Source: Antedon bifida
Lineage: Eukaryota; Echinodermata; Crinoidea; Comatulida; Antedonidae
Length of the DNA: 64,000 nucleotides
NCBI GenBank assembly: GCA_963402885.1
Contig: OY727093.1
Location: 17,179,036 to 17,243,035, forward strand
Direction of reading: 5' to 3'
Part shown: piece after piece, positions 13,045 through 62,547 of the stretch
Layout: every line of letters begins with the position of its first letter
Numbering within the stretch: the first letter of the stretch is position 1
Program-made: the position numbers and the translations under genes
The notes under the pieces: generated by a model
What the model was told of the DNA's origin: nothing
The model's input: only the letters and a program-made list of their open reading frames with translations
Databases searched by the model: none

Positions 13045-14511
13045 CTGGGGTAGCACTAACATTTCATTTTGTTTAGCCATTTGGCGAAAGTCAAAATATT
13101 TTTTTTAGTCAAATCAGTTTATCTATAGCCAAAATGGCTAAAGTTCAATTTTTTTATTTAGCCAAATGAATCGGTCATTAGCCAAAATTAACAATTGTTG
13201 AAATATAATGGTAAAAACGTTTTAGTTAATTTATCTATGTCAATAGGTCTATACACTGTTCCCTGAACGTTTTTGTAAGGCATTTGGTGAAAGAGAGCCA
13301 TGCCTAAATCACTGTATATTTGATTTAAAAAAATAATTGTTGTTGTATTTTATATGATCAAAACAATTGTTCAAATTGTTTTTAATCATACAGCATTCAT
13401 GCAGTTATCAATTTAATAAGAAACATTTTATAGTTTTCTGAAATCCCCTGAACGTATGTTATTTATGTTTTTTACGCTTGGCTGGTGGCTTCCGTACTAT
13501 ACCACGCAAAAATCGTGTCCTAAGACTTTCACGGTCACCCACCGTCACCGCCGCGCAGCGGGTGAATGTTTTTTAATTGGGTATGCTCAAGAGGTGCGAA
13601 AGTGCAGTAGCGCAGGCCTAGGCTAGGGACCTAGGCCTACAAAATTATGTACGACGGTACGTCGTAGGCCTATATGCTAAAAATATTTCTAGCAAACGAA
13701 CACTCGTATCGTTGTTGAACGTGCAGATAATATAGGCCAAAGCACAGGGAAAAGGCGTTTCTGTCGGGGGAGAAATTTATACCATCCCGGCTCGATTATT
13801 TATTACCCACCAACAACACAGAAGCCGGCGGCCGGCCTTGCTGTTTATATAGTCCGCAATAAATGCACGTGTGTGTTTAGCTAAATCCCCGTTAGACTCT
13901 ACCATTTCCCGAATGTTGTTTTGTTTACTCTACTGACGCACTGCACGCACAAGGAAACTTTATTAAGGGTAAAATATGAAACTACATTATTGGAGCCTAA
14001 AATGCATAACGCATAAATATTGATTTCGATAAGATCATTCATTGAAGATACTATGTTTTTTTTTAATCTGAAAAGAACACCCTTATCGAAAAATAGACAA
14101 TCCCGGTAAATAGCCGACCGTCGGCTGTCGAGTCGTCGTTCGCTTGTGCAGCGCAACACGTGATAGTTTGGGTAGACTCCATCATCCATGTGTCGTGTAA
14201 TGTCTGTCTCTCTGTGCAGTCTACCTCTGCTATCTCCATCATATTGAAATAACAAAGAGACGCCTGGTACAACGAAACAAGTTGACGAAAATGGAGCTTG
14301 AAGTAAACAACATGATAACGAACAAAATAAATGCTTGAAGATCGACAAATGGACCTTTTAGTTGGACTTTATGCTTTCACCAAAATTATTATTTTATTAT
14401 CTATTTTATCATATGTCATAGCCAAAATGGCTAAAGTAGCCGTTTTATTTTTTGCCAATCTGGAAACGTTTTCGCCCATGGCGACTTGGCGATCGGCCAG
14501 TGCGAGCCCAG
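13045..14511 (+). mobile_element. 1.47-kb unclassified element, copy 1 (5-bp target duplication GGTAT)
   Basis: A near-identical inverted copy lies at 43471-44927, so both limits can be read by comparison. It starts CTGGGGTAGCACTAAC and the reverse of its right end is CTGGGCTCGCACTGG, giving imperfect inverted ends. GGTAT lies directly on both sides (13040-13044, 14512-14516). Inside are repeated GCCAAAATGGCTAAAG words near both ends and a GC-rich middle. ORFs are not conserved between copies, so it appears non-autonomous. Confidence 0.65.
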
Positions 14512-14519
14512 GGTATAGC

Positions 14520-14680
14520 CAGTAGTGTAACTAACACAGGAGGCAAAGGCCCCTGGTTTAGCACTCCTAAGAAGCATTCCAACGCTGGGTAGTTATGGCT
14601 GCTCATGCTCTTGGGCCTCTTACAGTAAGCTATCGAGCCCTAGGTTTAGCCAGTGAGAGCTCATAGCCGTTACGCCACTG
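14520..14680 (+). mobile_element. hAT-like MITE with 8-bp target duplication
   Basis: The ends CAGTAGTGTAAC and GTTACGCCACTG are inverted. GGTATAGC (14512-14519) and GGTGTAGC (14681-14688) flank it, an 8-bp duplication with one change, as expected for hAT. It sits immediately beside the 1.47-kb element and shares its GGTAT. Confidence 0.65.
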
Positions 14681-17424
14681 GGTGTAGCATTGATTCTTAA
14701 TAATATTTTCTATTATTGCTGTATTATAATATTAATTATAATAATATTGTTCATATTTTCCTTAAAACAGATGTTTTTCAAGGTGAACCAGGAAGTAAGG
14801 GGTCAATGCTAGACCTCCAACATCATACATTAGTGTTTTCATGATTATCAACTGTGAATTGGGCTTAAATTGCCCGACACATACTGTGTACATGCAACAT
14901 GTGCCTGCAAGCTGAAAATAGTTGTGGAGGCCTAGCACTTTTCTAAGGTAAATATTATCATGTAAATAAATATGTCAATGTAAACAAGGATATGAGAAGG
15001 TTAACAATGACAAAATAAAACAAATTTTAAAAGCTTATCAGAAAATGTAATGTTTACACAAGATGCAATCACACTGCTTTTTCCATGTCAATTCTAAACA
15101 AAACAAAGAACAGTGCTCTAGATCTGAACAAAAAAGTTTAGTTGAGCATTCCAAAACAATCATGTTTACAGTTAAAGTAACTAGATTTTAATCAAGCTTT
15201 TCTTGGACATTATAAATTAAGAATGACTAAGAGATGAATGACAAGATAGTGATGAACATTTATGACAAATTGGACCTGAATAAGGCTAAGTTATGAATTT
15301 GATTATTGCCTGTACTGTGTCACTATTCGAATAGAGTGAGCTCTTTATATTTAAAAATACTGCAGCTGAAAATGGGCCTCATTTGCTAGTGTTCCTAAAT
15401 GTTCTTAACAACTACATAACAAAAACAGACACTAACAAACAATAAGCAAAATAGAGTAGAGTCCAATCCAAGTACAAATACTATATAGTGGGTGTATACA
15501 CCCACTGTTGTAGTTTATGTGTAAATGAATAGTTAATCCTAATCTACACTAACAATGCAGTATACAACAACGCATTATACTGTACTTTAGATGGTTGTCT
15601 TCTATATAAATATTTGTTTTCTTTTTGTTTAGTTAGTTGAAACATACAAGGTTTCTTGCATTTTCATGTTGGTACATGTTATAAACATTATGGGAGAAAC
15701 CCAGAAACAAAAACCTACAAAAATACAACTGAAACTGTGTTTTAGATCTTATTCACAGGGTTCCTAAGGTGTCCACTTAGAAAAAGATTCTTCTCTATTT
15801 CCAAAATAGGAATCTCAATAAATATTAGTTAATAATTAATTATGTCATATAACTTATGTTTGATCACAAAACGAATATACAATATAAATATATTAACACT
15901 ATACCTGTGGATTGATATAACTATATCCAATACTTTTGGCATTCCTGTCCCATTGCAACAGGTGGGACCAAAAACCAAATAAGGATGAACAAGTTAAGAC
16001 AAATGGAACAACATGAAAACACAAGAATAACAAACGATTACTGTATTGCAAAAGTAACTCCAGCAGTGGACTTGGAAGATGTAAAATTGTAGCTTAGACT
16101 GAAGTCAGTAAGCAAGTCATCTGGTCCCCTAAATTAATGTACCCTTCCAATTCAAACAGCCTGGCATGACAGTCCACTTCAAAGCAAAGGGTTATAGTAA
16201 ATCAAGCATTGCAATAAACTGTATGCTGTATTTTTTGTCATGCTAATCCTACAATTCATGGTTGATTGGGTACAAAAGCTTCTGGTGATTGAAAAAGTTG
16301 TCCCCTTTCCAGTACAGTGGTTAGTTCCATTAATATTTTATAAAGATACTAATATCATACATGGATTATTCCATTTGCTTGATAGGAGTTTTTATGATTT
16401 ATGAATTGATGGCAGCAAACATAATTTTATAAATATCAGGAGATTATCTCAAAGGTGTTAAAAACCAGGGGTTGTTTTATTGGAGAGCAGAGACACTCAT
16501 CACTCCCTTGAGGTTTGGAACACAAAAGAGAGGCTTAACAAGTTGAATCAGAAACCATTAACAATCCATTCCAATTAAACAGCTTAAACATCTATATCCT
16601 TCGTTTAGTGTTTCAAATATATACTGTATATTAATATTCATGACCTTTAGCAATTATGATATTACTATTACCTAATTTAGAGTGAAGATATTGAAAACAA
16701 AATGTCATACTTAATTATTTATTAGTCCAATTTCATCTTAATTACTGTATTATTTATGGATAATTTTTTAATTAAATGCAATCAAATCAAGCAGCAATTT
16801 AAACCTGCTACTACTGTCAATGATTATGCATGTGTATTATACATTTTACATACAAAAACTGTTGAAACTAAATATTTAGTTTAACAATTTATTGACTGAT
16901 CAATTATATGAATATTCATTACTTATCCAACTTAATTGTATTATATATTTAAATCTTGGATTATTTACGATTACTGTATCCTGATTATTTGCAATACTGG
17001 TACCATGTTTTGCTAAAATTATATTCAAACACGGAAATATAATAAATAATCCAAACATTAAAATGTCAAATGATATAGAACTCCATACTTCAGCATTAAT
17101 CATGTCATTATAAATTAAATACGGTATGTCTATAAAGTTCAAGGAAATATATAACCAATCAGAGGATCAGAGATTTTTTTTAAAAGAGAGAGGGCTTATA
17201 TACTATAAATAAAGTGCTGAACTTTAAACCTATTGTTTTCATTCAGTATTGCTGTTTTTGCTTTCACAGTTTAATAATAAAATTCAAACATTTATATTGC
17301 GCCAATTCCAAAAAGATGATCAAAGGCTCATTTTATCCTGAAATTTGCTAAATAAATGTTTCAGTAAGTAGTTTAATAAGGTTGTAAAATTAATTTTAAA
17401 TGAGTCAAAAGTGGGTGAAAGTTT

Positions 17425-18590
17425 GGGTATTGCTAAAATGCGCAAACAACAAAAAAAGCTGCGCAAACCTCCTTCAAAACAATTATTATTGATTAGAACA
17501 CAACTAGAACTATATAGGGAGACAATTTATAGGGAGACAATTTATGGGGAAAAAAAAAATTTGAAATTCCTTTAAGTTTGCCTTTTTTTGGTTAAAAACT
17601 TCAATTTTTGGGAAAATTACTGATTTCACAGCGCAAACAACAAAAAAAGCTGCGCAAACCTCCTTCAAAACAATTAATATTGATAGAACACAACTAGAAC
17701 TATATAGGGAGACAATTTATGAGAACAAAAATTTGAAATTCCTTTAAGTTTGCCTTTTTTGGGGTTAAAAACTTCAATTTTTGGGAAAATTACTGATTTC
17801 ACAGCGCAATTAACAACAAAAAAAGCTGCGCAAACCTCCTTCATAACAATTAATATTGATAGAACACAACTAGAACTATATAGGGAGACAATTTATGGGA
17901 AAAAAAATTTGAAATTCCTTTAAGTTTGCCTTTTTTTCGTTAAAAACTTCAATTTTTGGGAAAATTACTGATTTCACAGCGCAAACAACAAAAAAAGCTG
18001 CACATCAAAAGGAGGTTTGCGCAGCTTTTTTTGGGGGTTTGCGCTGTGAAATCAGTAATTTTCCAAAAAATTGAAGTTTTTCACCCAAACAAAAGGCAAA
18101 CTTAAAGGAATTTCAAATTGTTTTCCCCATAAATTGTCTCCCTATATAGTTCTAGTTGTGTTCTATCAATATTAATTGTTTTGAAGGAGGTTTGCGCAGC
18201 TTTTTTTGTTGTTTGCGCTGTGAAATCAGTAATTTTCCCAAAAATTGAAGTTTTTCACCCAAAAAAAGGCAAACTTAAAGGAATTTCATATTTGTTTTCC
18301 CATAAATTGTCTCCCTATATAGTTCTAGTTGTGTTCTATCAATATTAATTGTTTTGAAGAAGATTTGCTCAGCTTTTTTTGGGGGTTTGCGCTGTGAAAT
18401 CAGTAATTTTCCCAAAAATTGAAGTTTTAACCCAAAAAAAGGCAAACTTAAAGGAATTTCAAATTTTTTTTCTCATAAATTGTCTCCCTATATAGTTCTA
18501 GTTGTGTTCTAATCAATAATAATGTTTTGAAGGAGGTTTGCGCAGCTTTTTTTGTTGTTTGCGCAGTGTTTGCGCAGTTTGGCAATACCC
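17425..18590. mobile_element. Foldback element 1 with opposed tandem arrays
   Basis: It starts GGGTATTGCTAAAATGCGC and ends GCGCAGTTTGGCAATACCC. The left arm (about 17440-18000) holds three to four direct copies of a 170-190-bp unit with words GCGCAAAC, AAAAAAAGCTGCGCAAACC, TATATAGGGAGACAATTTAT and TTACTGATTTCACA. The right arm (about 18008-18572) holds the same units reversed. Flanks TGAAAGTTT and GAAAGGTTT are near-identical 9-mers, a probable target duplication. No coding capacity. Confidence 0.72.
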
Positions 18591-22000: not shown

Positions 22001-22105
22001 CAAATTGTTGACCAGTATAATAACTTGCATATGAACATCCATTCACCAAATAAGTTAATTTTATATTGATGGACAAGAATTTGATTTGAAAAACTGACAA
22101 CTTAC
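19095..22105. other. Intron 7-8 holding a rolling-circle element
   Basis: About half of this 3.0-kb intron is the element at 19583-21192. The rest shows nothing beyond AT-rich sequence. Confidence 0.65.
19583..21192 (-). mobile_element. Helitron/Helentron-like non-autonomous element 1 (intact, 1.6 kb)
   Basis: Read on the minus strand, it opens with a hairpin of GGTTATCCGCAAC and its complement, and closes with the hairpin AACTCGTCAcTTTGACGAGTT followed about 6 bases later by the terminal CTAGT. A subterminal 3' hairpin plus CTAG end is the mark of rolling-circle transposons. An inverted GGATAACC just inside the 3' hairpin mirrors the 5' end, as in the Helentron (Helitron2) group. No Rep/helicase coding is present. 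ORFs inside are chance. Confidence 0.65.
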
Positions 22106-23285
22106 CTGTTTTACTTTATGTTCTGGACTCTTTTTTAATATTCCATTTGACTTGTCTTGATCAACTTCTTTGGTGTCACAGACATCTCGTTTTAGTATTC
22201 CAGACACTTCCAATTTATCTTTACTAGTATCTCTCTTTAAAATTGATTTACTTTCCACAGAATCTCTCCTTTGTTCTAATTCAGTATCTTTTCTCAAAAT
22301 TCCTCCAACATCCTTTTTATCAGCCCCAGAATCCTTACGAAGGATACTAGAAACATCTTTATCTGTTTCAATTGTTAATTCCTGCTCCGTTTTTAAGATG
22401 CTTCGAACTCTCTCTGCTCGAATGCTGTCATCTGCCAAACTTCGCTCCACTTTGCAACTCTCTTGTCTAACAACATTGTTAAAACTATCTCTACGTTCAA
22501 TCTTTAAAATACTTCTAGGTGAATCAAGTCCATCTCCCTCAGGGCTGTCACCAGAAGCTTGCTTTTTAAGAATACTGCGACGAAGAGCAGGAGAACCAGT
22601 AGGTGTGGAGATCATGTTATCTGGTTCGATAGTATCAGTGTCTTTAACATCTGATTGAGATTCCCTACGTTCTGTGATGGAGCCGCGGCTCCCAGACAAA
22701 GACAGAGATCCTCTACTGCCTGTTAAAGAGTTCCTTTCAGCATTTTGCTCATTAAAAACAAGTTTCATTTGGTCTGCAACTGAAAGTGTTTTAAGAAGTT
22801 CTGGATCTGGTGGTTTGGCAAAGCTACAAGCAAGTGGAGAGAAAGAACCAGCTTTCTTAACCTCCTCAATTGTAACCGGTTGTGTTTTAAATCGCGATTC
22901 TGTACGCTTTTTCCGACGAGGAGTTGTTCGTTTAGGTGGTGGGTCTTTTTTGGTTTCAGATTTTTCTTTAAACAGCTTCATCTTATCCGAAAGTGACAAT
23001 TTTGAGAACTCATCTTCTTGTACCTCTGGTGTTGAATCAAGGCTAGTTGAGCTTTGTGATCGTATTGATTGATTCTCAGCCCACTTAACAGCATCTGTAA
23101 GCTCTTCTGGTGTAACAGGTTGGGTCTGCCACCTACTATCATGTCCTCTAAGACGCTGAACACACCTATGCACTGGTTTAGGTGATGAAGGTGGCGTACT
23201 ACTTTCAACAGCAATTTTTGCAAACATCATTTTCTTCTGGCTAATACTTAATGATGAGAGCTCATCTGTTTTGCAATCTTCTTTG
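22106..23285 (-). CDS. SVIL-like: Supervillin-like large exon 7 (393 codons) with TQPVT repeats and eight [GS]IL[RK] motifs
   Basis: The acceptor CCTTTTCCTTGCAG|C completes the Ala codon from exon 6, and the donor AAACAG|GTAAGT is in phase 0. The first part carries two alternating motif pairs: LSSLSISQKKMMFAK then SRWQTQPVTPEELTDAVKWA, and LSLSDKMKLFKEK then SRFKTQPVTIEEVKKAG, followed by a third LSVADQMKLVFNE. Such pairs occur in the N-terminal region of supervillin. The second part is a Ser/Arg/Asp-rich stretch with eight short motifs: SILK three times, SILR, GILR, SILK again and GILK twice, each 12-30 residues apart. These match the SILK docking motif for protein phosphatase 1. Several SPR/SPE sites are present. 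Long antisense ORFs here are shadows. Confidence 0.87.
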
Positions 23286-24282
23286 CTGCAAGGAAAAGGT
23301 TCAATATATGAAAACGCTCTTCAAATACAGACATGTTTGTTCTGTCATTCATGTGTTTATTCACTGAGTTATATTTGCTATGCTAGTGTTAACATAGTAA
23401 TTCTAATGTAAATGCAAAGCATGTCGATTAATTTGTATTTTGAAGAAATTTTGTTTTTTAAAGAAAATGTTCTAAACAAATGAAATATTAACATTTAAAA
23501 ACCAAATTCATTCATATTTTTTAAACAATGGTATATTTTATGTTGATATGATTGGAATTGACCAACATATAACCTAAAATCCATTCCACAAATTTGTTAA
23601 AATATAGTTTTAAAAATAAAATTAACTTATATATATATAATGTCTTTTTGATGTTTATATAGTAATGATGAAGGTTTAACTTGTTTGTGTAAAATGTTTG
23701 TAAAAAGTAAAAATGGTCTTGTAATCAGACATGTACTCAATGTACAAGAGCGCCCTCTAGGTTGAACAACAAGTAGTTTATAAGGTGTGTATTTTACATG
23801 CACTGAACCCATAAACAGATTAGTCCTAATGAACAACCTACTTGTTGACATACATGCCAATATTGAAAGTTAATAAATTGGGAGGTGGTGTTTTTTTTTG
23901 GTCAACAGCGCCTTCTATTTATTTTCGAAATATTTTTGTTTAAAGAAACCGCAGATGGCTATACAAATTTGTGTGTGAGCTTATTTGTTATATTTTGATG
24001 CAAAAAAACATACATACAAAATTAAATTATCTTTGTAATCTGGGTGAAAATGTAGAAGACCGAGAGCACGATGTTAGGCGGGGAGACGAGTCTAAAACAT
24101 GGGAGTGTTGGCATGTATGTGTTGAAAAGGAGGGGTTGCTGCCACTGTGTGTAATAATTTGAATTAACAAAGACTTAAGAGGCATAAACATAATCATTTT
24201 ATGTGTACAGTTTGCGACTCTTTATGAAAACAGTGAAAACTTACATACAGTAGCAAGTGTAAAGTGTAGGTTTAACACTTAC
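23286..24282. other. Intron 6-7
   Basis: A 997-bp intron. AT-rich; no repeat, RNA gene or regulatory site recognised. Confidence 0.6.
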
Positions 24283-30080: not shown

Positions 30081-30766
30081 ATCACGACATTCATATCAGC
30101 TATGGTATCCATACCTAACACTGAATTAACATTTTTTACTTTGTTTGTTAAATTTTAAATGTTTATTAAATGTACAGAACTCGCATTAATTTTTTTTAAA
30201 TGGATTCATTCATTTACTTATTTGACATAGTTCAGGACTTATATTTTAATATCTACTATTATTAAGTGAAATTGCATGTGTAACAATGATATTAAAGGCT
30301 TTGAAAAAAATATAAATTAAAAATAACTAAAAGTAGGCTTTAGTTTTGTATGTTGAATAAACAATAGTATCATCTATACATGAAAATGTATGCTTATTAA
30401 ACAATACTGCATATTATTAAATAGTAGGCCTTATATATTTAAAGAAAAATACTACTGTACTATTTATACTGGAAATGTCTTGTTTTTGTGTGCAGTACTA
30501 GAGCTCCTTTAAAGCTGATAATTTTATGCTATTCTTTTTTACAAAAGGATGATTGAATCCTGTTCATTTGTTGTCATGTTTATTTGATGTAATGGTATTT
30601 AACTTTGGATTATTTGTACAATATTGTATACACTCAAATGTAATATCCTTATAATCTCTATTATTTTTCTTAGCACAAACATAGGAACTCAAAATTATGC
30701 ATAGAATTTCTGATTTTGTTATGAAGTTATTGTTCAAATCAAATGGAAAAAAAAGATTATACTCAC

Positions 30767-31161
30767 TTCAATTCCAAATTCAAGTTCCCTTGCTTTCCGT
30801 AATTCCTCCTGGGTGATTGGAACACACTGTTTCCTATGGCGATCCCTAGACCTAGGCTGGCGTATATGACGTGAAGGCTCTTTTACAGGTGGTTCTCGTT
30901 CAGGTGGCTCATTTACAACAAGTTCTTTTACAGGCACAACAACTTCTACAGAAGAAACAGATAATGTTGATGAGTTTAACTGCTGTCTTATACCTCCCAT
31001 ATACGTACCAGCACGGGGTCTATGCTTAATTTCGCTCTTCTTAGGCCTGTAATTCAACGTGGCAGCCCTTCTCTTAAAATCCTTTTGGGCTCGGGCCTTT
31101 GATTTCCTTTTACTAAACAGCGATCCCATTTTAACTACGGTTCGCGCACTGTACGTGTCAA
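30767..31161 (-). CDS. SVIL-like: Supervillin-like exon 5, or alternative first coding exon (ATG at 31129)
   Basis: The donor GAA|GTGAGT ends in phase 0. There are two readings of the left (5') side. An acceptor TTCTGCAG| before 31161 would give V-DTYSARTVVK-MGSLFSKR, in phase with exon 4. Alternatively, translation starts at the ATG at 31129 (context TTAAAATGG), with an in-frame TAG at 31172-31174. The start MGSLFSKRKSKARAQK fits the N-myristoylation rule (Gly2, Ser6, Lys7) and is followed by many Lys/Arg, as in proteins held to the membrane by a lipid plus basic charge. The exon continues with proline-rich EPPEREPPVKEPSR and ends RKQCVPITQEELRKARELEF, a degenerate form of the TQPVT-type repeat seen in later exons. 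Both transcripts may exist. Confidence 0.78.
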
Positions 31162-38493: not shown

Positions 38494-41400
38494 CTAGATT
38501 TGAACTTGTCACTTTGACGAATTCGGGTTATCCGCCACGCGCAAACTGCACGTGCACGTCATACGTTAGAATATTGCGCACAGAAAAACTATTATGCCAT
38601 TGAAAAAATGTTAGTGCGCTCTCTATTTTGTGTCACGTCTAAGTAATACAGTATATACTATATACTGTATACGTACTACATACAGTGCAGAATAGGTGAA
38701 AATAAGTGACCAAAGTTATTGACGCTTTTGCCCATGATGACGTCTTAAAAATCTTAAAAATGATAAATCATGCTAAAGATAATTGATTGACCTAGACAAT
38801 ATAAAAAATGGGGGGAAATGGAATACGTATAAGTGGAGATGCGCTCTATTAAATGTGATGAGCTATGACGAAAGAGACAAAAATCCAATATTTTATATTC
38901 GAGTGGCCATACGATGACGTCACAATGTCCGGTTACCCATTGATTCATGATCCGATATCTACAACTCATTAACTTCCAGAATATGTAAAAAAAATAAAAG
39001 TTCATCATGTAATTTAGAATCTATGACTGTTTAAAAAAAGGCATAATTTTGACGAATTTTTAAACTTTTTCATCAAAAACGCGCGCAAATTATCCAATTC
39101 GACGTGCTCGTATGACGTGATTTTAAGTCGAAATTGTTTAGAAAGTTGGTAAAATTACTAGAAAAGGCTGGAAAAACATAAATCACGCAAAAAAATATAT
39201 TTTTAGTGTTACGTGCGCACAACGCATGTAAAAATGCGGGCGCGCGTGGGAATTTTTTACATGCTCAAAATGTCATGATCAGCGTAGAAAGTTGATTAGA
39301 AATTCATTTTGCGCATTTCGAAATTTTAAATGCGCGTACGCGCGAAACTTTTTGTGAAACATGCCATTTTTAAGGGTATTGCTAAACTGCGCAAACTGCG
39401 CAAACCAAGCGCAAACAGCGCAAACCAAGCGCAAACCAAAAAAAACCCTGCGCAAACCTCCTCCAAATGGCTTATTATTGTTTCTATCATGACTAGGACT
39501 ATCATAGCAAGTAATTTATGAAAAAAAATTATGAAATTGCTGTAAGTTGGCTTTTTTTTGGGCGAAAAACATCATTTTTCGGGTGAAATGTCAGATTTTA
39601 CAGTGTAAATCGCGCAAACCAAAAAAAACCTGTGCAAACCTCTTCCAAATCACTTATTATTGGTTCTATCATGACTAGGACTATCATAGCAAGTAATTTA
39701 TGAAAAAAAAATTATGAAATTGCTGTAAGTTGGCTTTTTTTTGAGCGAAAAACATAATTTTTTGGGTGAAATGTCAGATTTTCCAGTGTAAATCGCGCAA
39801 ACCTAAAAAAACACTGCGCAAACCTCCTTCAAATGGCTTATTATTGTTTCTATCATGACTAGGACTATCATAGCAAGTAATTTATGAAAAAAAATTTATG
39901 AAATTGCTGTAAGTTGGCTTTTTTTTGGGCGAAAAACATCATTTTTTTTGGGTGAAATGTCAGATTTTACAGTGTAAATCGCGCAAACCAAAAAAAACCT
40001 GCGCAAACCTCTTCCAAATCACTTATTATTGGTTCTATCATGACTAGGACTATCATAGCAAGTAATTTATGAAAAAAAAAATATGAAATTGCTGTAAGTT
40101 GGCTTTTTTTTGGGCGAAAAACATAATTTTTTGGGTGAAATGTCAGATTTTACAGTGTAAATCGCGCAAACCAAAAAAAAACCTGCGCAAACCTCTTCCA
40201 AATCACTTATTATTGGTTCTATCATGACTAGGACTATCATGGCAAGTAATTTATGAAAAAAAAAAAAATGAAATTGCTGTAAGTTGGCCTTTTTTTGGGG
40301 CGAAAAACATCATTTTTTGGGTAAAATGTCAGATTTTACAGTGTAAATTGCGCAAACCAAAAAAAACCCTGCGCAAACCTCTTCCAAATCACTTATTATT
40401 GGATCTATCATGACTAGGACTATCATAGCAAGTAATTTATGAAAAAAAAAATAATGAAATTGCTGTAAGTTGGCTTTTTTTTTAGGGCGAAAAACATAAT
40501 TTTTTGGGTGAAATGTCAGATTTTACAGTGTAAATCGCGCAAACCTAAAAAAAACCTGCGCAAACCTCTTCCAAATCACTTATTATTGGTTCTATCATGA
40601 CTAGGACTATCATGGCAAGTAATTTATGAAAAAAAATTATGAAATTGCTGTAAGTTGGCCTTTTTTTTGGGCGAAAAACATCATTTTTTGGGTGAAATGT
40701 CAGATTTTACAGTGTAAATCGCGCAAACCTAAAAAAAACCTGCGCAAACCTACATGATGTTGATTTGGAAATACAGTAGAATGTTATAAAAAACCTTGAA
40801 GGTAAATAATTGCGAAACATTTCATTAAATAAAGTTATATTTAAAAAAAAAAAAATTTTCTTGTTTCTGTTTTTTTTTAAAGTTTGCGTTGTGAAATCTG
40901 TAATTTTCCCAAAAATTGTTTTACCCAAACAAAGGCAAACTTACAGGAATTTCAATATTGTTTTTTCATAAATTGTCTTCCTATATAGTTCTAGTTGTGT
41001 TCTTATCAATATTAATTGGTTTGAAGGAGGTTTGCGCAGCTTTTTTTGGTGTTTGCGCAGTGTGCGCAAACCTTGAAATCTGTGAAATCTGTAATTTAAA
41101 TTTTTTATTTAAAAAAAACAGGCAAACTTACAGCAATTTCAAATTGTTTTTCCATAAATTGTCTCGCTATATAGTTCTAGTTGTTATCTAATCAATATTA
41201 ATTGATTTGAAGGAGGTTTGCGCAGCTTTTTATGGGGTTTGCGCAAACCTTTGAATCTGTGAAATCTGTAAATTTCGCAAAAAAATTAAAGTTTTTCTCC
41301 CAAAAAAAGGCAAACTAATACAGCAATTTCAATTTTGTTCCCATAAATTGTCTCCCTATATAGTTCTAGTTGTGTTCTAATAAATATTAATTGATTTAAA

Positions 41401-42079
41401 GGAGGTTTGCGCAGCTTTTTTTGTTGTTTGCGCTGTGAAATCGGTAATTTTCCTAAAAATTGAAGTTTTTCACCCAAAAAAAGGCAAACTTAAAAGAATT
41501 TCAAATTTGTTTTCCCATAAATTGTCTCCCTATATAGTTCTAGTTGTGTTCTATCAATATTAATTGTTTTGAAGGAGGTTTGCGCAGCTTTTTTTGTTGT
41601 TTGCGCTGTGAAATCAGTAATTTTCCCAAAAATTGAAGTTTTTCACCAAAAAAAAGGCAAACTTAAAGGAATTTCAAATTTTTTTTCTCATAAATTGTCT
41701 CCCTATATAGTTCTAGTTGTGTTCTAATCAATAATAATTGTTTTGAAGGAGGTTTGCGCAGCTTTTTTTGTTGTTTGCGCAGTTTGCGCAGTTTAGCAAT
41801 ACCCCATTTTTAATCCATAGAAAGTTTGCCCTTGATATGACTTAAATTTTCACAAAGTGTCAATACAAAATTACTTTTGGTTTATAATCTATGATCAATC
41901 ATTGAAATTCATAAAATCGCGCGTAACTTACGCTGCGCGACTCTAACGTCTTATAACGAAGTTTCCTGCACATCTACAGCTACAGGTCAATCTTATGACA
42001 AAGTTATAAAAAGTTATGTCTACAAATATTTGAGATATAGCTGCAACAAAATTCCGGGAAAGAAAGAAGAATAAAGATG
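38494..42079 (-). mobile_element. Rolling-circle element 2, interrupted by foldback element 2
   Basis: The CTAGT 3' end is at 38494. The body matches element 1 (GATGACGTCACAATGTCCGG, GCGCATTT.GAAATTTTAAATG). It is split at 39374-41804 by the foldback element. The 5' hairpin is missing; it abuts element 3. Confidence 0.65.
39374..41804. mobile_element. Foldback element 2 with opposed, non-identical arrays
   Basis: It starts GGGTATTGCTAAACTGCGC and ends GCGCAGTTTAGCAATACCC, flanked by a perfect CATTTTTAA duplication (39365-39373, 41805-41813). The uninterrupted target can be read at 46.0 kb. The left arm has about seven units of 185 bp with TCATGACTAGGACTATCAT; the right arm has about five units of the type found in element 1, reversed. 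The arms are separated by about 100 bp of unrelated sequence near 40.76-40.86 kb. Confidence 0.75.
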
Positions 42080-43304: not shown

Positions 43305-46300
43305 ACTAGATTTGAACTCGTCACTTTGACGAGTTCGGGTTATCCGCGCAAATGCAACATGCACATACTTAACTATATGAACCTCGACAATTATTATGCC
43401 ATTCTATGACATGAAATAAATATGTTTACAGTGCTGAATTGTACCTATTATGTAGCACTAGAATACACCACTGGGCTCGCACTGGCCGATCGCCAAGTCG
43501 CCATGGGCGAAACCGTTTCCAGATTGGCGAAAAAAATAAAACGGCTACTTTAGCCATTTTGGCTATGACATATGATAAAATAGATAATAAAATAATCATT
43601 TTGGCGAAAGCATAAAGTCCAACTAAAAGGTCCATTTGTCGATCTTCAAGCATTTATTTTGTTCGTTATCATGTTGTTTACTTCAAGCTCCATTTTCGTT
43701 AACTTGTTTCGTTGTACCAGACGTCTCTTTGTTATTTCAATATGATGGAGATAGCAGAGGTTGACTGCACAGAGAGACGGACGTTACATGACACATGGAT
43801 GATGGAGTCTACCCAAACTATCACGTGTTGCGCTGCACAAACGATCGACGACTCGACAGCCGACGGTCGGCTATTTACCGGGATTGTCTATTTTTCGATA
43901 AGGGTGTTCAGATTAAAAAAAAACATAGTATCTTCAATGAATGATCTTATCGAAATCAATATTTATGCGTTATGCATTTTAGGCTCCAATAATGTAGTTT
44001 CATATTTTACCCTTAATAAAGTTTTCTCATGCGTGCAGTGCGTCAGTAGAGTAAACAAAACAACATTCGGGAAATGGTAGAGTCTAACGGGGATTTAGCA
44101 AAACACACACGTGCGGACTATATAAACAGCAAGGCCGGCCGCCGGCTTCTGTGTTGTTGGGTAATAAATAATCGAGCCAGGATGGTATAAATTTCTCTCC
44201 CGACAGAAACGCCTTGTCCCTGTGCTTTGGCCTATATTATCTGCACGTTCAACAACGATACGAGTGTTCGTTTGCTAGAAATATTTTTAGCATATAGGCC
44301 TACGGCGTATCGTCGTACATAATTTTGTAGGCCTAGGCCCCTAGCCTAGGCCTGCGCTACTGCACTTTCGCACCTCTTGAGCATACCCAATTTAAAAACA
44401 TTCACCCGCTGCGCGGCGGTGACGGTGGGTGACCGTGAAAGTCTTAGGACACGATTTTCGCGTGGTACGGAAGCCACCAGCCAAGCGTAAAAAACAAAAA
44501 TAACATAGCGTTCAGGGGATTTCAGAAAATTGTAAAATGTTTCTTATTAAATTGATAACTGCATGAATGCTGTATGATTAAAAACAATTTGAACAATTGT
44601 TTTGATCATATAAAATACAACAATTATTTTTTAAAATCAAATATAGTTATAGTTATACAGTGATTTAGGCATGGCTCTCTTTCCCCAAATGCCTTACAAA
44701 AACGTTCAGGGTACAGTGTATAGACCTATTGACATAGATAAATTAACTAAAACGTTTTTACCATTATATTTCAACAATTTTTAATTTTGGCTAATGACCG
44801 ATTCATTTGGCTAAATAAAAAAATTGAACTTTAGCCATTTTGGCTATAGATAAACTGATTTGACTAAAAAAAATATTTTGACTTTCGCCAAATGGCTAAA
44901 CAAAATGAAATGTTAGTGCTACCCCAGCACCATATTACAGTATTTTACAGAATAAACTGTATATGTTATATACAGTGTAGCATAGACAAAATTACGAGAC
45001 CCATCTTTTAAATCCAATTATTAACACGATGACATCATCAAATTGACAAATAAAGATAACAATTTTAGAAGATAATTATCTAAATAATTACATTAAAACA
45101 AATTTGAAGAATTTTGGGCACGTAAAAGTGAGATGCGCTCTCGTTTAAACGCAATGAACTTTTATGCAAGAGATGAAAATTTGACTTTTTGAATTCAACT
45201 GGCCATATGATGACGTCACAACATCTGATTGGCAAAATATTCACATCAATTCGTATCTACAATCCAATAGCTTCCAGAAAACATTTTAATCATGATTATC
45301 ACTTTTTATTCTGACGAGCTATAACAGATTGAAATTTACTGTAAAGATGAAAATAAGTGACCCACGTTATTTACGTTTTTAGACATGATGACGTTATAAA
45401 AATTAAAATATTTTTAATTCATGCGAAAGATAGTTGATTGACATAGACAATATTAAAATTTCGGGGGAAATGGAATACGTATAAGCGAGATGCGCTTTGT
45501 TGAATGTGATGAGCAATAACGAAAGAGTAAAAAATCCTATATTTTACATTCGTGTTGCCATACGATGACGTCATAACATCCGAGTGGTAAAGGTTCTGCA
45601 TGAATTCATATCTACAACATATCTGCTTACATATTAAATTTAAAAAATTGGGGGTCGTGGATGATCCTGAGGAGCTATAATAGATTAAAAATAGGCTTAA
45701 TTTTGACATTATGTTGTCACTTTTGCAACTAAAACGCGCGCAAATGGTCTAAATCAACGTGTTTGTATGACGTCATTTTAATTTGAAATGATGTAAATCT
45801 TTTTTAAAATGACTAAGAAAGGCTGTAAAATCATAATTCAAGAAAAAAACACATGATTTTCATGCTCCGTACGCACCTTACGCGTACATTTTTTCGCGCG
45901 CGTGGGAATTTTTGACATGCTCAAAATGTCATGATCAGCGTAGAAAGTTGATTAGAAATTGTTTTTGCGCATTTTGAAATTTTAAATGCGCGTGCGCGCG
46001 TAACTTCTTGTGAAACATGCCATTTTTAATCCATAGAAAGTTTGCCCTTGACATGACTTAAATTTTCACCAAGTGTCAATACAAAATGACTTTTGGTTTA
46101 TAATCTATGATCAATCATTAAAATTCATAAAATCGCACGTAACTTACGCTGCGCGACTCTAACGTCATATAACGAAATTTCTTGCACATCTACAGCTACA
46201 GGTCAATCTTATGACAAAGTTATGCAATCTTATGTTGACCATAATTAGAGATACGCTGCGAACAAAATTCCGGGAAAGAAAGAAGAATAACAAAGATGAT

Positions 46301-51607: not shown

Positions 51608-51754
51608 CTTCTTGGAAGGCCTTATTATCCTGGGCAGGTTCTATTTCATCAGTCCTACTTTCCTCATTGACCTCTGTCTCTACTCTGGTCTCTGAAGGAA
51701 GTGATGTTAGCAGCAACTCTGCAGATGACACGCTTGAACAAGTTTCTGTACCAG
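51608..51754 (-). CDS. SVIL-like: Supervillin-like exon 4 (49 codons)
   Basis: The acceptor is ATATTGCAG|CTGGTAC and the donor GAAG|GTAAGAA is strong. The frame reads (A)GTETCSSVSSAELLLTSL, then PSETRVETEVNEESRTDEIE and PAQDNKAFQE. It is acidic and Ser/Thr rich, with no domain I recognise. Both ends are phase 1, so the exon is symmetric and could be skipped without shifting the frame. It is isolated by introns of 7.5 kb and 20.4 kb, which, with its symmetry, would suit an alternatively used cassette exon. That regulation is an inference. Confidence 0.72.
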
Positions 51755-54167
51755 CTGCAATATAGTGAAAGTAAATTGTTTAGAAGTCATCAAAGCAGAC
51801 AGATTAGTATGTTTAATTTGTTCTACTTTATACATAATTGTTTATCTATGATATTGTTCTACTGTAAATATTCTTTCTTGTTTTGATGTGTCAGCAATTT
51901 GCTTCCTATAAACACAATTACTATCTTAAAAACAATACAATGTACTAAATTGAATATAATATTCACATTTCCTGAAAAAATATATCAAAATATAATTGCA
52001 ACACTATTCATAACAAATTACTGTATATTGATAAAAAGATACAATATTTTATTTTGGTTTTAAAATTATACCATTTCTTATGTTTATAGAGAAGTTACTT
52101 ATAGGGTTTATCAGGTTGGATTTTAGTACTTTTTGGAGGGAATGGATTCTGGAAGGGATAAAAAGGGTTATGTATTATTTTTTAAATATTTTAATTATTT
52201 TATGTAATTACAGGACGAGAGCCTAAAAATGATAAATAAGGTGCTGAACTGAACCTGTGCAATCATTTACTTTTGTCTTTGGGGTATGTTAATTTTGTTT
52301 GCAGTACACAATATCTTTCCAAAAGGAAATAAAGTATTAAGTTGAAAATGTTTCCTTCTGAGAGGGCTGACGTACAATATCTGAAAGTCAAGTCATTCTC
52401 AACTTTACACTATTTACTATTCGCAAACACATGACTACTTTGCTAAAAAACAAGTACACCAATATTTAACAATCATTGAAAAATATATATACTAGTAATT
52501 CATTCTCAAATATTAAACAGACATGAAACATATGTTTAATAATATAAGTTATGATTTCACACTGTACAGATTGCATTAAGATGGATATCTTTATGCAAAT
52601 ATATTTTGCTATATAATTCCTCAATAACTAAAATAAAAAGTCAATATACTATTCAAAATGTAGACTGCCTAAACACCACATTATTTCAGGTTATGCAGAA
52701 AAACTTCAAAACTAAAACCTTTAACAAATGTTTGAATGTATCTGATTATTATTATTGCAGACAGTTTTATAAAGTAAACATATTTATATGAAATGACAAA
52801 ATAAACCAGGGCAAAATTCATCAAGTAATATTCATTATGTCAATGAGTTGAGGAAATTGCTAAAGTAAATGCAAAATAACCTTCAAATCACTCAAATATT
52901 GATTACATCAAGACTTTTTTGGGGTGAGAAGATTAATTTTTATTTATTTTCTCTAAAAATGAACCATAATGTAAGTTAAAAAGATACTTAAGCACTGAAA
53001 TATCTTGACTAAAGCTTGCTTTTTTACTTAATAAAGCACTTTACTACTGTATCTTTAAATCTTAAAATAAAAAAAGAATTAAATATCAGACCTGAATATT
53101 AAAATCTCACTATATACTCTACCTTCCATTTTACTGATAATAATTCAGTCAATGATTCTTCCAATATTTAGAAATCTTTCATAATTCAAATAGTGATAAC
53201 AAAAATCAGACACAGTAAATTCAATTAATGAAAACCAAAATGTATTTTTGTATATGCAGACACGTAACTTCAATCTTAAAATCTTTAAGATTTCTCTGCT
53301 TGTTCATATAATTGGCTCATTTTTCATTCACGATAAAAATCAAGTATTGAATCTCGACACTTAATCAAAATCGTGAAATCACTTCTACAAAACATCCCAT
53401 TAAATGCCAACGTAATACTGAAAAACCATAGAAATTAATGCCTCAATATTTAATGAAACATAATGATGAAATATCTAATAGCTCAACGAATATGTTAGCT
53501 AATCTAAGAAATTGTAATAAACGAACATTTAATTTGCTACATGTATGTTTTTAGAATGACTAAACGGGCATGAATGAGGTATTCGATGAAATCAACAAAC
53601 TACATGTAAATCTCACAGCGCTGATGGCGACTATGATACAGATATACTGCAGTACAGTTAGTTTTAGTAAAAAAGGACAGATAAAACCCAGTACAAAATA
53701 AATGTTCAGTAGCAAATCATAAAAAAAACACTATTTTATTTCGCAAATATTTAGTTTCAGCATTATTACTAGGTTGTTTAAATTTCTAATTTCTCTCTTC
53801 TGCATAAAAAAATACATTTTTAGAAGATAGAGTAGACATGAAATAAGAATTTTCAAGAACATTGCAGATATGTTCAGTATTTAGATATGTTGTGGGCACA
53901 TAACAACTTTGATATACAGCTAAATGCTAAATGTTTGTCAAATCGCCATTAGGGAAGCTCAGAAATTAGCATACAGTAAAGTATGGTACATAAAACATTC
54001 ACAATATATACTAAATTGTTATTCTAAAATGTTATATCAAATTATTATGCTTTAATGTTAGATTTCATTTATATCATTTGTTCTACAATCCAATTCCAAT
54101 CCAATCAGTTGAAATATTTAAAAACTTTATAAAGACTTTCTTGTGATGCATCATTAAATTAATAAGG

Positions 54168-59303: not shown

Positions 59304-59413
59304 CTTCTTGAACCTGTATAGTTCTTTTTTCACTGTCGCTGTCCTTCCTTGTTTTGTGTCTGGCTAGTATTTGATCTGTCGTCATTTCACCTATACTACC
59401 AGCTCTTCTCATT
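59304..59413 (-). CDS. SVIL-like: Supervillin-like exon 3 (37 codons)
   Basis: The acceptor is TATTTAG|AATGAG and the donor GAAG|GTAAGC is strong. The frame continues from exon 2 as R|MRRAGSIGEMTTDQILARHK, then TRKDSDSEKRTIQVQE. RRAGSIG is a good basophilic kinase site (RRxS, as for PKA). The exon ends with one base of a codon. The ATG near the acceptor is simply an internal Met. The next exon that joins in phase is at 51754, leaving a 7.5-kb intron; a tiny optional exon at 54904-54924 could lie between them. Confidence 0.75.
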
Positions 59414-60101
59414 CTAAATAATAGACAAATATTATGCAATAAAAATTAAATAAAAACCCACCCAAAAATTATTGAAAAACAAATAATAAACACTAAATAA
59501 AGAATAAATTAATTAATTTTAAAAATTTATTTTTGTAATCTATACTTGAGTTTTAGTGGTTTATGTTTAAATTAACTAACAAAAAATTGTTTTCTGTTAT
59601 ACAATTATGCATTCATTAGTACAAGTAATATATTTAAACATTAATACTATTGTTTTATTATTAGATCATTCCAAATTTATCTATTATGCACTAAAAGTTG
59701 TTATGGGATATAGCAATAGAGGGCGGTAGATATCAGCAACTCATACAGGATAATTCTCGCTTAGGAATACTTATCTTGTATTATTTTAAGGGAAGGAGAC
59801 TAAAAACAGGCACTAATTATCTCTGGTGCACTCTTATTTAAAATGTGGATAATATAATATATTATAGAGCTGCTTGCGTTGCTTGAATTCCTAGACAAAG
59901 ACATTATCAATTCAATGAATAATAATTAAATATCAAAATAATGTTTTGAAAATAACATAACATAATAAGTAGATATCAACAAAGCATCCAAAACATATAA
60001 CCTTAAAGAAATTACATATAGTGTATTAAGTAAAAGTGTAAGAAAGAAGTCCAAATAAGATACAAGGTTTAAATAGCAGTGGCTAATACGTAAACAGATA
60101 C

Positions 60102-60188
60102 CTTTCTCTGCGTGCTGCCCGTGAAGCCTCTAATGCGGTAACGAGTTGTTTCGTTTCTTGTGAGATAACCGAAGAGTCGATGGAAATT
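60102..60188 (-). CDS. SVIL-like: Supervillin-like exon 2 (29 codons)
   Basis: The acceptor is ATCAG|AATTTCC and the donor is GAAAG|GTATCT. One base completes the Arg codon left open by the previous exon, then come ISIDSSVISQETKQLVTALE and ASRAARRE, with AG left over. The Lys/Glu/Ala/Leu composition suggests a short amphipathic helix ending in a basic patch. Phases match on both sides (2 out, 1 in), which is the main support for such a short exon. I do not recognise a specific family motif in it. Confidence 0.72.
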
Positions 60189-61312
60189 CTGATGGATAGA
60201 CAAGAATTCACCTGCATGCTCAACGGATGGTAATAGCAATGATAAACACAGCTTCTTTTTAAAAACCAACTTTTATGTTTTGTATAATTGTTGACTCCAA
60301 GTAAAACATGATGATATTTGATTTTCAGTAACAGATTTATCTACTCATAAAGTAGATTAAGGTAAAACAAGATTAATATTTGTTCAAATAATAAATTGTT
60401 TGGATCTACAAGAAGCTGTGTTTAACAATATGTTAGAAGCATAGATATTGATAATACATAGATATAATATAAAACAACATGCAAAATCATATAAATTATT
60501 GTCAAAATTTGGTTCAACAAATTTCAAAAATAATTTAAGTAACCTCCACATACAACCAGAAGTGCTAAGATGTGTGGAAACTCATCCTCGAACTAGTTGA
60601 GATTTTTTCACTGTCAATTCATCATTATAATTTTGAGATAACCAAATTTTCAGAAGATGTATAAAATCGATATGTCTATCTATGTCTATCTATTAATTAA
60701 ATAAACAATATTGAGGGATGAATAAAGTTTTACTTAGACTTTTGACTTATTCGCAGAAAATTTAATTTTTTACATCAAATGAATTTGTCGCCTCATTGTA
60801 AAAAAGAAGCCATTAGCTCCTGTCACCCTTTGGCACAATAAAGCCATTTGTTGTTATTTGTTTGTTTGCCAAAACGAATGAACTAATCAAACTATGTATT
60901 AAGGAACAATCTGATTATTTATTTGAATATAAAGCAAAATAAAATCCCAACTAATTTATTACTCAATTCTGTTTACATGCAATTAACTATACTATTCACA
61001 AAAAAGAAGAAGACAATCATGCAAATCCATCTTTTTCTTAAATTTAGGTGCTTGGAGAAAAAGATAATTTGATAAGCATTTTGTTTTTGATTGGCTTTCT
61101 AAAATTCAAAACAAAACTTTTAAAGGTGCCTTTAAACAATGTGTGTGTGTTTTGTGACAAAGAAAGGTTGCAAGGTTGATTATATTTTGTAAATGTAAAT
61201 TAAATTGTCATTTATCATAAAAAATGACACTATTATTTGACCGACACAATAAATTGTTCAGTGGTTATAGAAGAATATAGAGGGCAGCAGACATGTTTTT
61301 ACCAATAACTAC
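60189..61312. other. Intron 1-2
   Basis: 1.1 kb, AT-rich, with a short (TGTG)n run near 61141. No other feature recognised. The intron between exons 2 and 3 (59414-60101) is also featureless. Confidence 0.6.
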
Positions 61313-62216
61313 CTTGTTCCTTGTGAATCCTCTTTGTGCATGAACACATCATCATCATCTTTTTCTAATTTTGTAGAAGATTTACTTGACACACTGTCAA
61401 TGGATTCTTCCTTTGCAAGTGGAGCTTTAGTTTGCTCTTCCTTATTGCTTCCTCCTGAATCTAAAGGTCTTTCTTTTGATATCCTCTTTGTAGTGAGATC
61501 AGTCTCGCTGCTCGAGGGTGATATACCAATGCCATATTTTTCAGCGAGTTCCCTTTTACGTTGCTCTTTGTATTTAGCAATACGTGCCGAGCGTGCTTCT
61601 AGGTCTTCAGATGATTCTGACCCACTTATTTGTTGTCGTAACTGTGTCAATTTTTCACTGGCAGTCGTTGCTAAAGTACCTCCCATTTTGGGACTGTTCG
61701 TTGAATACTTTGGAGAAGTAGGACTATACCTGGGACTTAAATTACCATTGGGTGATCGTGCACCAAGGTATTTATCAGTTAGTGAGTTAGTACCGGATTT
61801 ATCAACTTTGTTTTTGTGACTACTGTATCTTGACTCCGAAGGCCTACTGCTTCTTTTTTTATCTTTTTCTAGGCTACCATAGCCACTTTCTGTACTAGCA
61901 CGTTTTGGGTCAAAACTTCCAGTCAATGAACTTGGCCTAGTTCTTGCTCTACTTGTAACATTGTCTGTAGGGCTAAGTGGGCTTCGATGTTTATAACGAT
62001 CTTGCGATAAGGATGAATCTGTAGAAGATATCCTATCCCTTGGTGAGTAACGACTATAATCTCCACTGTAATGGTAGCTACTTTGGCTTTCGTAAGTATC
62101 TCCACGTAGTGAAAACGAACCACTTGATGGTCGGCTAGCATGGAACCGCTGCTGACGTTCAGATGATGTGTGGTAGGAAGACGGACGATCACTGAATTTA
62201 TCCCGTAGTCTTGCTA
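61313..62216 (-). CDS. SVIL-like: Supervillin-like exon 1 of the visible set (301 codons)
   Basis: The acceptor is a T-run ending ACAG just right of 62216 and the donor is AAG|GTAGTT. The exon starts with two bases of a split codon and ends with two bases of another. The protein begins ARLRDKFSDRPSSY and is Ser/Arg/Tyr rich, with several SP(R/T/K) sites that suit proline-directed kinases (RYSPRD, RSPLSP, RYSPTSPKY, NSPK). About residues 205-225 read EARSARIAKYKEQRKRELAE, then KYGI; this is the clearest supervillin signature in the window and is probably a short basic helix. The tail is acidic (KLEKDDDDVFMHKED). No ATG is needed, because the open frame runs to the acceptor. The start codon of this isoform must lie upstream. 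Confidence 0.85.
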
Positions 62217-62547
62217 CTGTAAAAAAAAAAGCACATTTTTAAAAGCTCATCTTGTATTGTGGAGCACTATAGGGATTAAGAATTTAAAAACATTTCTATT
62301 AAAATATAAATTTTGAAATAATATATAACATAATTTTGTATTGTGTTTACTGTATAACATTGTGGCTGTGCTCATACTTGCCACTAAATGAACATTATTT
62401 ATTATCGCAATACATGTTCACAAGCACAATTATGATCTAGATAACTAAACATATTGCCACCAATTTACGCGTAACCATGATTTGGTATTTAATAAATTCT
62501 CAAGTTATTGGCTATTAAAGCCTGCCTAATCTTGATCATGATCATGA

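Follow-up and report, generated by a model that had tools for sequence, protein, structure and literature searches.

A supervillin gene, assigned by homology, lies on the minus strand of the window, i.e., of the whole 64-kb stretch of DNA analyzed, and one of its exons encodes eight motifs of the form [GS]IL[KR], the SILK docking motif of protein phosphatase 1 (PP1). Supervillin ties actin to the cell membrane. We lean towards reading the motif-bearing stretch as a putative disordered multi-site docking array for PP1, which would leave the RVxF groove of the phosphatase free.

The translation joined from the window's exons comprises 1,237 residues. It shows 72% identity over 864 residues to the 'supervillin-like' protein P0129 of the crinoid Anneissia japonica (4,062 residues), which by itself makes a crinoid source of the window probable, and 35% identity over 654 residues to P0001 of Ptychodera. 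Since this homology lies outside the gelsolin part of supervillins, we assign the gene to the supervillin family, as the original prediction had done. Most of the N-terminal half is encoded in the window; the gelsolin repeats and the villin headpiece are located past its low end, and Anneissia P0129 has both (Pfam Gelsolin 2.7e-22, VHP 3.3e-18).

Splice sites with matching phases connect an exon ending at 30767 to the exons 25790-24283 (exon C), 23285-22106 (exon D, 393 residues, which carries the array), 19094-18967 (exon E), 3587-3408 (exon F, with two TQP motifs), 1720-1585 (exon G) and 1071-855 (exon H), all on the minus strand. A translated search (tblastn) with Anneissia P0129 as query recovered the same exons and five further stretches. 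Its limits, again on the minus strand, give exon A on the N-terminal side (61312..62217, 74% identity), exons at 60101..60196, 59305..59415 and 51621..51755, and the exon upstream of C (30764..30889). When the parts of the window with a match to the Anneissia protein are counted, the array exon is indeed the seventh, as had been stated. It is bordered by an AG acceptor and a CAG/GTAAGT donor, its phases 2 and 0 fit the neighboring exons, and it is 79% identical to Anneissia P0129 over 395 residues (tblastn). The array is preceded by the conserved anchor SPLACSFAKPP (22808..22840, minus strand), a pattern that is also present in 11 of the 18 other motif-bearing proteins; homologous arrays are bounded by this anchor and the next TQP motif. 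A Pfam match to DUF4695 just before the array stays below the cut-off, and a DUF2570 match was dismissed as chance.

By translation, the array spans 22133..22576 on the minus strand, i.e., 148 residues (861-1008 of the joined translation). In reading direction, its motifs are SILK (22565..22576), SILK (22502..22513), SILK (22391..22402), SILR (22337..22348), GILR (22292..22303), SILK (22235..22246), GILK (22190..22201) and GILK (22133..22144). That is, the number, the order and the location in a single exon agree with the original prediction, which had placed the motifs within 22128-22590; their codons run from 22576 to 22133. The predicted spacing of 12-30 residues is nearly right, with one gap being longer (start-to-start steps of 21, 37, 18, 15, 19, 15 and 19 residues). 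A basic or small residue was said to precede each motif, which applies to seven of them but not to the last (R, R, R, S, G, K, S and N for motifs 1 to 8).

Eight motifs are far above chance. Among 200,000 shuffles of the 393-residue exon, 190,516 contained no motif, 9,274 one, 208 two and 2 three, and none more than three. Within the array interval, every one of the 8 [IV]L dipeptides belongs to a motif. We also compared the motif with the 23 alternative arrangements of its residue classes in 19 proteins, i.e., the window protein and 18 others, picked for carrying motifs. Here, the motif occurs 123 times in total and 20 of the other arrangements only 0-9 times. The commoner ones are KSIL (83), ILKS (22) and LKSI (12), of which 82, 16 and 9, respectively, overlap a motif. 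With regard to composition, the array interval is disorder-like: one of 163 residues is aromatic, 43% are charged, and the Uversky value of 0.385 is on the disordered side of the boundary at 0.422. AlphaFold2 without an alignment yields a low-confidence model for the array alone (mean pLDDT 54.9), in which a helix extends from just past motif 2 to motif 4 and one ten-residue block reaches 79.

The check proposed along with the original prediction was that the motif core is kept among relatives while the spacers drift. This is what we observe at p<0.05 (Fisher's test) in 6/8 species pairs, six of which were compared in the homologous array and two in an upstream array described below, with motif columns defined by the first sequence. 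The crinoid pair (window and Anneissia) shares all eight motifs in the same order, with 32/32 motif residues but only 98/136 spacer residues being identical (p=9.9e-5). For the other pairs of the homologous array, we obtain p-values of 4.5e-4 (hemichordates), 0.033 (amphioxus), 0.049 (limpets), 0.079 (pond snails) and 0.094 (sea stars), and for the upstream array 6.7e-4 (the chelicerate pair, i.e., the scorpion Centruroides and its close relative P0029) and 4.3e-10 (the bee Nomia and the termite Zootermopsis). When the eight pairs are pooled, 230/240 motif columns and 176/180 I-L-K/R columns are identical compared to 790/1148 spacer columns. Maintenance under selection is thus supported by six pairs, with sea stars and pond snails missing p<0.05. 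One caveat to the comparison of core and spacer is that, for general reasons, I, L and K may be slower to change than the S, D and E residues found in spacers.

To place the array among supervillins, we used three protein searches, which gave 234 distinct proteins within Bilateria; two of the searches contributed their best 120 of 4,166 and best 120 of 406. Since the match lists are rich in isoforms, absences count per sequence and not per species. We consider as homologous the place from an SPLAxSFxKPP-like anchor or a TQPVT motif to the next TQP motif. Among the matches listed, sea stars, hemichordates and amphioxus have arrays at this place, as do several arthropods and the majority of the molluscs examined. 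The number of [GS]IL[KR] motifs is 6 in both sea stars (Patiria and Acanthaster), 5 in both hemichordates (Ptychodera and Glandiceps), which have forms with V for I in addition, and 7 in each of two Branchiostoma sequences. Only 1-3 motifs are present in Littorina, Mactra, Owenia, Tubulanus, Limulus, a millipede and a bee, and the centipede Strigamia (P0035) shows none in the homologous interval and several farther upstream. Beside the homologous array, a second one, rich in SILK and PILK, is located upstream in arthropods and in the nemertean Tubulanus. In such upstream arrays (P0004 17-187, P0020 111-303, P0026 900-1129), P often replaces S or G (PILKKKS), often followed by S-x-E/D.

Among the vertebrate matches listed, 42/45 mammal sequences have one copy, usually in the form P-[VI]-[RK]-S-I-L-K-S-Q-x-W-Q-P, and 3 have none; none of the 17 bird sequences has a motif. 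One GILK is found in a coelacanth and in three shark sequences. No exact copy is present in the lamprey (P0166) and zebrafish isoform sequences examined, and a copy in carp has other flanks and sits between earlier TQP motifs. The sea urchin sequence P0002 extends past the anchor and shows no motif, such that losses have happened unless this gene model misses an exon. From this distribution, the array looks ancestral to Bilateria, with an apparent reduction in vertebrates and in the examined sequence of a sea urchin. The expansion in this lineage that had been proposed is therefore not quite right. With considerable reservation, we suggest that the supervillin of the bilaterian ancestor may have been a SILK-only multi-site PP1 hub that captured whole holoenzymes, regardless of their targeting subunit, at the actomyosin cortex, with the mammalian SVIL being a one-site remnant.

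The residues around the core provide a second line of evidence. We derived the unit consensus E-[PV]-[KR]-[SGP]-[IV]-L-[KR]-[KR]-x-[ST]-[ST]-x-[DE] from 203 non-redundant copies of 23 proteins, which were picked for motifs (one per genus plus P0032) and cut by their last 850 residues in all but two cases. Within the core, 36/203 copies have P in first place and 24/203 have V in second place. K/R/H make up 72% at position -1 and 55% at position +4, with acidic residues at 2% in both, compared to backgrounds of 19% and 15%. Such basic, acid-poor flanks fit a ligand of the acidic surface beside the SILK pocket. The SILK rule, i.e., the ELM pattern, allows no acidic residue directly after the core; this residue is non-acidic in 8/8 window copies and in 139/144 exact copies overall.

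We also searched profiles of the copies against 177,635 distinct PDB sequences. A profile of 66/144 exact copies gave a single match at E<=10, namely the SILK segment of PP1 inhibitor-2 (2o8a, E=0.36). The sole match of the deuterostome profile (all 26 copies of four deuterostomes) is a PP1-targeting peptide at its GILK (8sw6, E=0.55). The protostome profile (52/118 other copies) matched ribosomal protein L9 (0.53) and Inturned (3.8), i.e., unrelated proteins, and a profile of 33/34 PILK copies had no match. As a control, we shuffled the flanks once around the same core, which resulted only in a cysteine desulfurase (3.4) and recovered neither PP1 ligand. The matches are not significant singly, and it is suggestive that two of three SILK profiles have a PP1 SILK ligand as sole match.

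The PP1 docking originally predicted is hence supported at the sequence level by the core, the flanks and two of the three SILK profiles, but the usual RVxF partner is absent by pattern. Within the 1,237 residues joined from the window, we find no match to [RK].?[VI][^P][FW], i.e., for this pattern the earlier statement that no RVxF is nearby is right. Across the N-terminal parts of 32 supervillins, which were obtained by a rough 850-residue C-terminal cut (whereby KPVKF of Centruroides was lost), the pattern is absent in 20 and present in 12, at scattered places without a shared site. Examples are KIMF in Anneissia, KPVKF in Limulus, RPVSF in Strigamia and KTVTF in Branchiostoma; the KIMF of Anneissia is about 220 residues ahead of its array, where the window has KMMF. 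We did not count these matches as partners of the array. RKVAF, KFIDW and RIRW of other supervillins, which are located in the gelsolin part or behind, were rejected as well. Some mollusc, amphioxus and nemertean copies (P0131 2882, P0133 2268, P0026 1813) run on as ILK-[KR]-x-[GSR]-SFE. The SF, which recurs between phyla, may represent a second contact or an RVxF-like element of non-canonical form.

The missing RVxF is one reason to consider, as the chief alternative, that the unit E-[PV]-[KR]-[SGP]-[IV]-L-[KR]-[KR]-x-S-S-x-[DE] is a supervillin-specific motif for some other partner (e.g., cytoskeletal or a kinase) and resembles SILK by coincidence. The upstream copies of arthropods and a nemertean, which are often PILK and thus outside [GS]IL[KR], also speak for it, as do the protostome and PILK profiles, which found no PP1 ligand in the PDB, and the vertebrate supervillins, i.e., those studied in the cited papers, of which the examined sequences carry at most one copy. 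On the other hand, the upstream arrays are the only ones where P is common before [IV]L. When the homologous interval was surveyed in 28 proteins (picked for motifs, with interval ends set by hand), the preceding residue was G or S for 157/199 [IV]L dipeptides and P for only 4/199, and 155/199 were within [GSP][IV]L[KR]. Furthermore, two profiles matched PP1 SILK ligands only, and we know of no other ligand class with a [GS]IL[KR] core. We therefore regard this explanation as rather unlikely.

The downstream half of the unit suggests another alternative, namely that the repeats are mainly phosphorylation sites of the basophilic or CK2 type ([KR]-x-S-S-x-E), with I-L aiding the kinase, which together form a multi-site phospho-switch for membrane or actin binding. 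This agrees with S/T frequencies of 42% at +6 and 43% at +7 (22% in the background) and with 49% D/E at +9 (15% in the background) among the 203 copies. In contrast, the S/T positions carry just 0.32 and 0.31 bits, far less than I (4.05), L (3.96) and K (2.98), values that are inflated since the search pattern required [IV], L and [KR]; and some window copies, e.g., motifs 3 and 7, lack S/T both at +6 and at +7. As the main role of the repeats, we thus deem phosphorylation improbable. Finally, the repeats could be functionless and stem from a recent tandem duplication or from a spread of low-complexity sequence, as eight alike units in one exon of disorder-like composition might suggest. This is hardly credible: even with the score threshold at 30, Tandem Repeats Finder reports nothing within 22100-23300, Anneissia retains the full set of eight, and the motif is present in multiple copies in supervillins from hemichordates, amphioxus, molluscs, arthropods and a nemertean.

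For the preferred multi-site PP1 docking, we envisage that each [GS]-I-L-[KR], usually flanked by basic residues, would occupy the SILK pocket on a catalytic subunit of PP1, with one subunit per motif. Given that the array has no RVxF motif, the RVxF groove of the bound PP1 would stay free. Several PP1 could then be held at once per chain, either bare or together with an RVxF subunit (e.g., myosin-phosphatase targeting protein) in triple complexes. The phosphatase would be concentrated where supervillin binds F-actin, myosin II and the membrane. The many weak copies would hold a PP1 cloud, not one molecule tightly, and would accept PP1 with an occupied RVxF groove. The S/T at 6-7 positions past the start of a motif, which are often followed by an acidic residue at +9, could act as switches for single sites.

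Parts of this are known from other PP1 ligands. The excerpts of PMC10066265 describe the SILK pocket as separate from the RVxF groove, with an acidic surface in between. Inhibitor-3 fills the SILK pocket, and its basic residues face the adjoining acidic patch, but it has one non-canonical LTIK, an RVxF (KVEW) and a CCC motif. Destroying its RVxF weakens PP1 binding about 200-fold (from 15.7 to 3460 nM); loss of its non-canonical SILK has little effect (same excerpts). Since inhibitor-3 with a dead RVxF still binds at 3.46 uM versus 15.7 nM, a single SILK is likely weak alone, judging by this analog. For Rif1, the parts of PMC5437018 at hand report a disordered docking region for PP1 (CRI) with an important SILK, the destruction of which lowers the PP1 affinity about 20-fold. 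In contrast to the array, Rif1 has one SILK (2128-2131) and one RVSF (2150-2153). The ligands covered in these portions of both papers have one SILK before an RVxF.

PP1 inhibitor-2 (PPP1R2, 2o8a) resembles the array in that a basic residue is followed by GILK and then by basic and S/T residues. It differs by having one match, a non-canonical RVxF and an inhibitory helix (excerpts of PMC10066265), compared to the window protein, where the motif occurs eight times and the RVxF pattern finds no match. When spinophilin occupies the RVxF groove, inhibitor-2 stays on PP1 via its SILK and helix (same source), which is a precedent for binding PP1 with a filled RVxF groove. The PP1-specific Phosphatase-Targeting Peptide version 3 (8sw6) has KGILK near its start, but is a 43-residue PP1-directed peptide with one matched stretch. 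Within the family of the window gene, mammalian supervillin/archvillin (SVIL) has a SILK with similar flanks after the last TQP, mostly P-V-R-S-I-L-K, in a single copy and without an array.

Links between supervillin and PP1 in the literature are indirect. Human SVIL is among the candidate partners of PPP1CB, reported in at least two of five interaction databases (PMC8806868, in part), which could be an indirect relation via actomyosin. According to the excerpts of PMC8783446, gamma-sarcoglycan binds archvillin, and PP1 beta is the top non-sarcoglycan protein in gamma-sarcoglycan co-precipitates from mouse muscle, but follow-up screens gave no support for PP1 beta interacting with the sarcoglycan complex. 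Two labeling screens in flies have two PIP82 neighbors in common, namely Supervillin and Bifocal, which binds PP1 (PMC11827603, in part). Papers naming supervillin together with PP1, myosin phosphatase or protein phosphatase 1 include PMC13364712, PMC8783446, PMC11827603 and PMC7575755.

SILK motifs, supervillin and PP1 scaffolds are already known. Within the openly licensed literature, we found no description of a SILK array that has many copies and no RVxF and persists across much of Bilateria, which is a weak negative, and no published link between supervillin and PP1 via SILK, where a reported one may have been missed. If correct, PP1 docking by the array would change the picture, given by the PP1 partners in the papers cited, of SILK as occurring once and adjoining an RVxF. 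Supervillin would be a direct phosphatase scaffold beside its links to myosin II and kinases, and may be an overlooked gathering point of PP1. It would also imply a simple, testable role for the single SILK of mammalian SVIL; loss of the SVIL gene reportedly leads to a myopathy in people (title of Hedberg-Oldfors 2020).

We further observed several features around the array. Within the exons from 25790 to 855 (minus strand), there are several repeats of the forms LSxxDKMKLF, ISERLEKFE and GIAERL that resemble the Lifeact-type actin motif VxxLxxxFE, published as an F-actin motif (excerpts of PMC13364712), and R-x-x-TQP[VI]T-x-[ED]E repeats adjoin them. The array itself was rejected as an F-actin motif, since VxxLxxxFE is unlike SILK; the nearby LSxxDKMKLF and SIADRL repeats do resemble VxxLxxxFE. 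Exon C shows 3-4 repeats of about 30 residues each at about 25230-24880 (minus strand), with the form EKNETVQKRxEKKSPERKKSSxSLxTE. Upstream of exon 30889-30764, an in-frame extension (31129-30890, minus strand) starts with MGSLFSKRKSK, which is possibly the N-myristoylation start of an alternative isoform; the string MGSLFSK is absent from Anneissia P0129. Many like ORFs (IVSLYSSSCVLSILIVLKEVCAAFF etc.) occur on both strands in 17300-18500 and 39300-41730 and are probably copies of an interspersed repeat within the introns. Finally, the stretches 13400-14650 and 43400-44540 are inverted and near-alike, with ORFs that share EIAEVDCTERxTLHDTWMMESTQTITCCAAQ, and are probably two copies of a mobile element.
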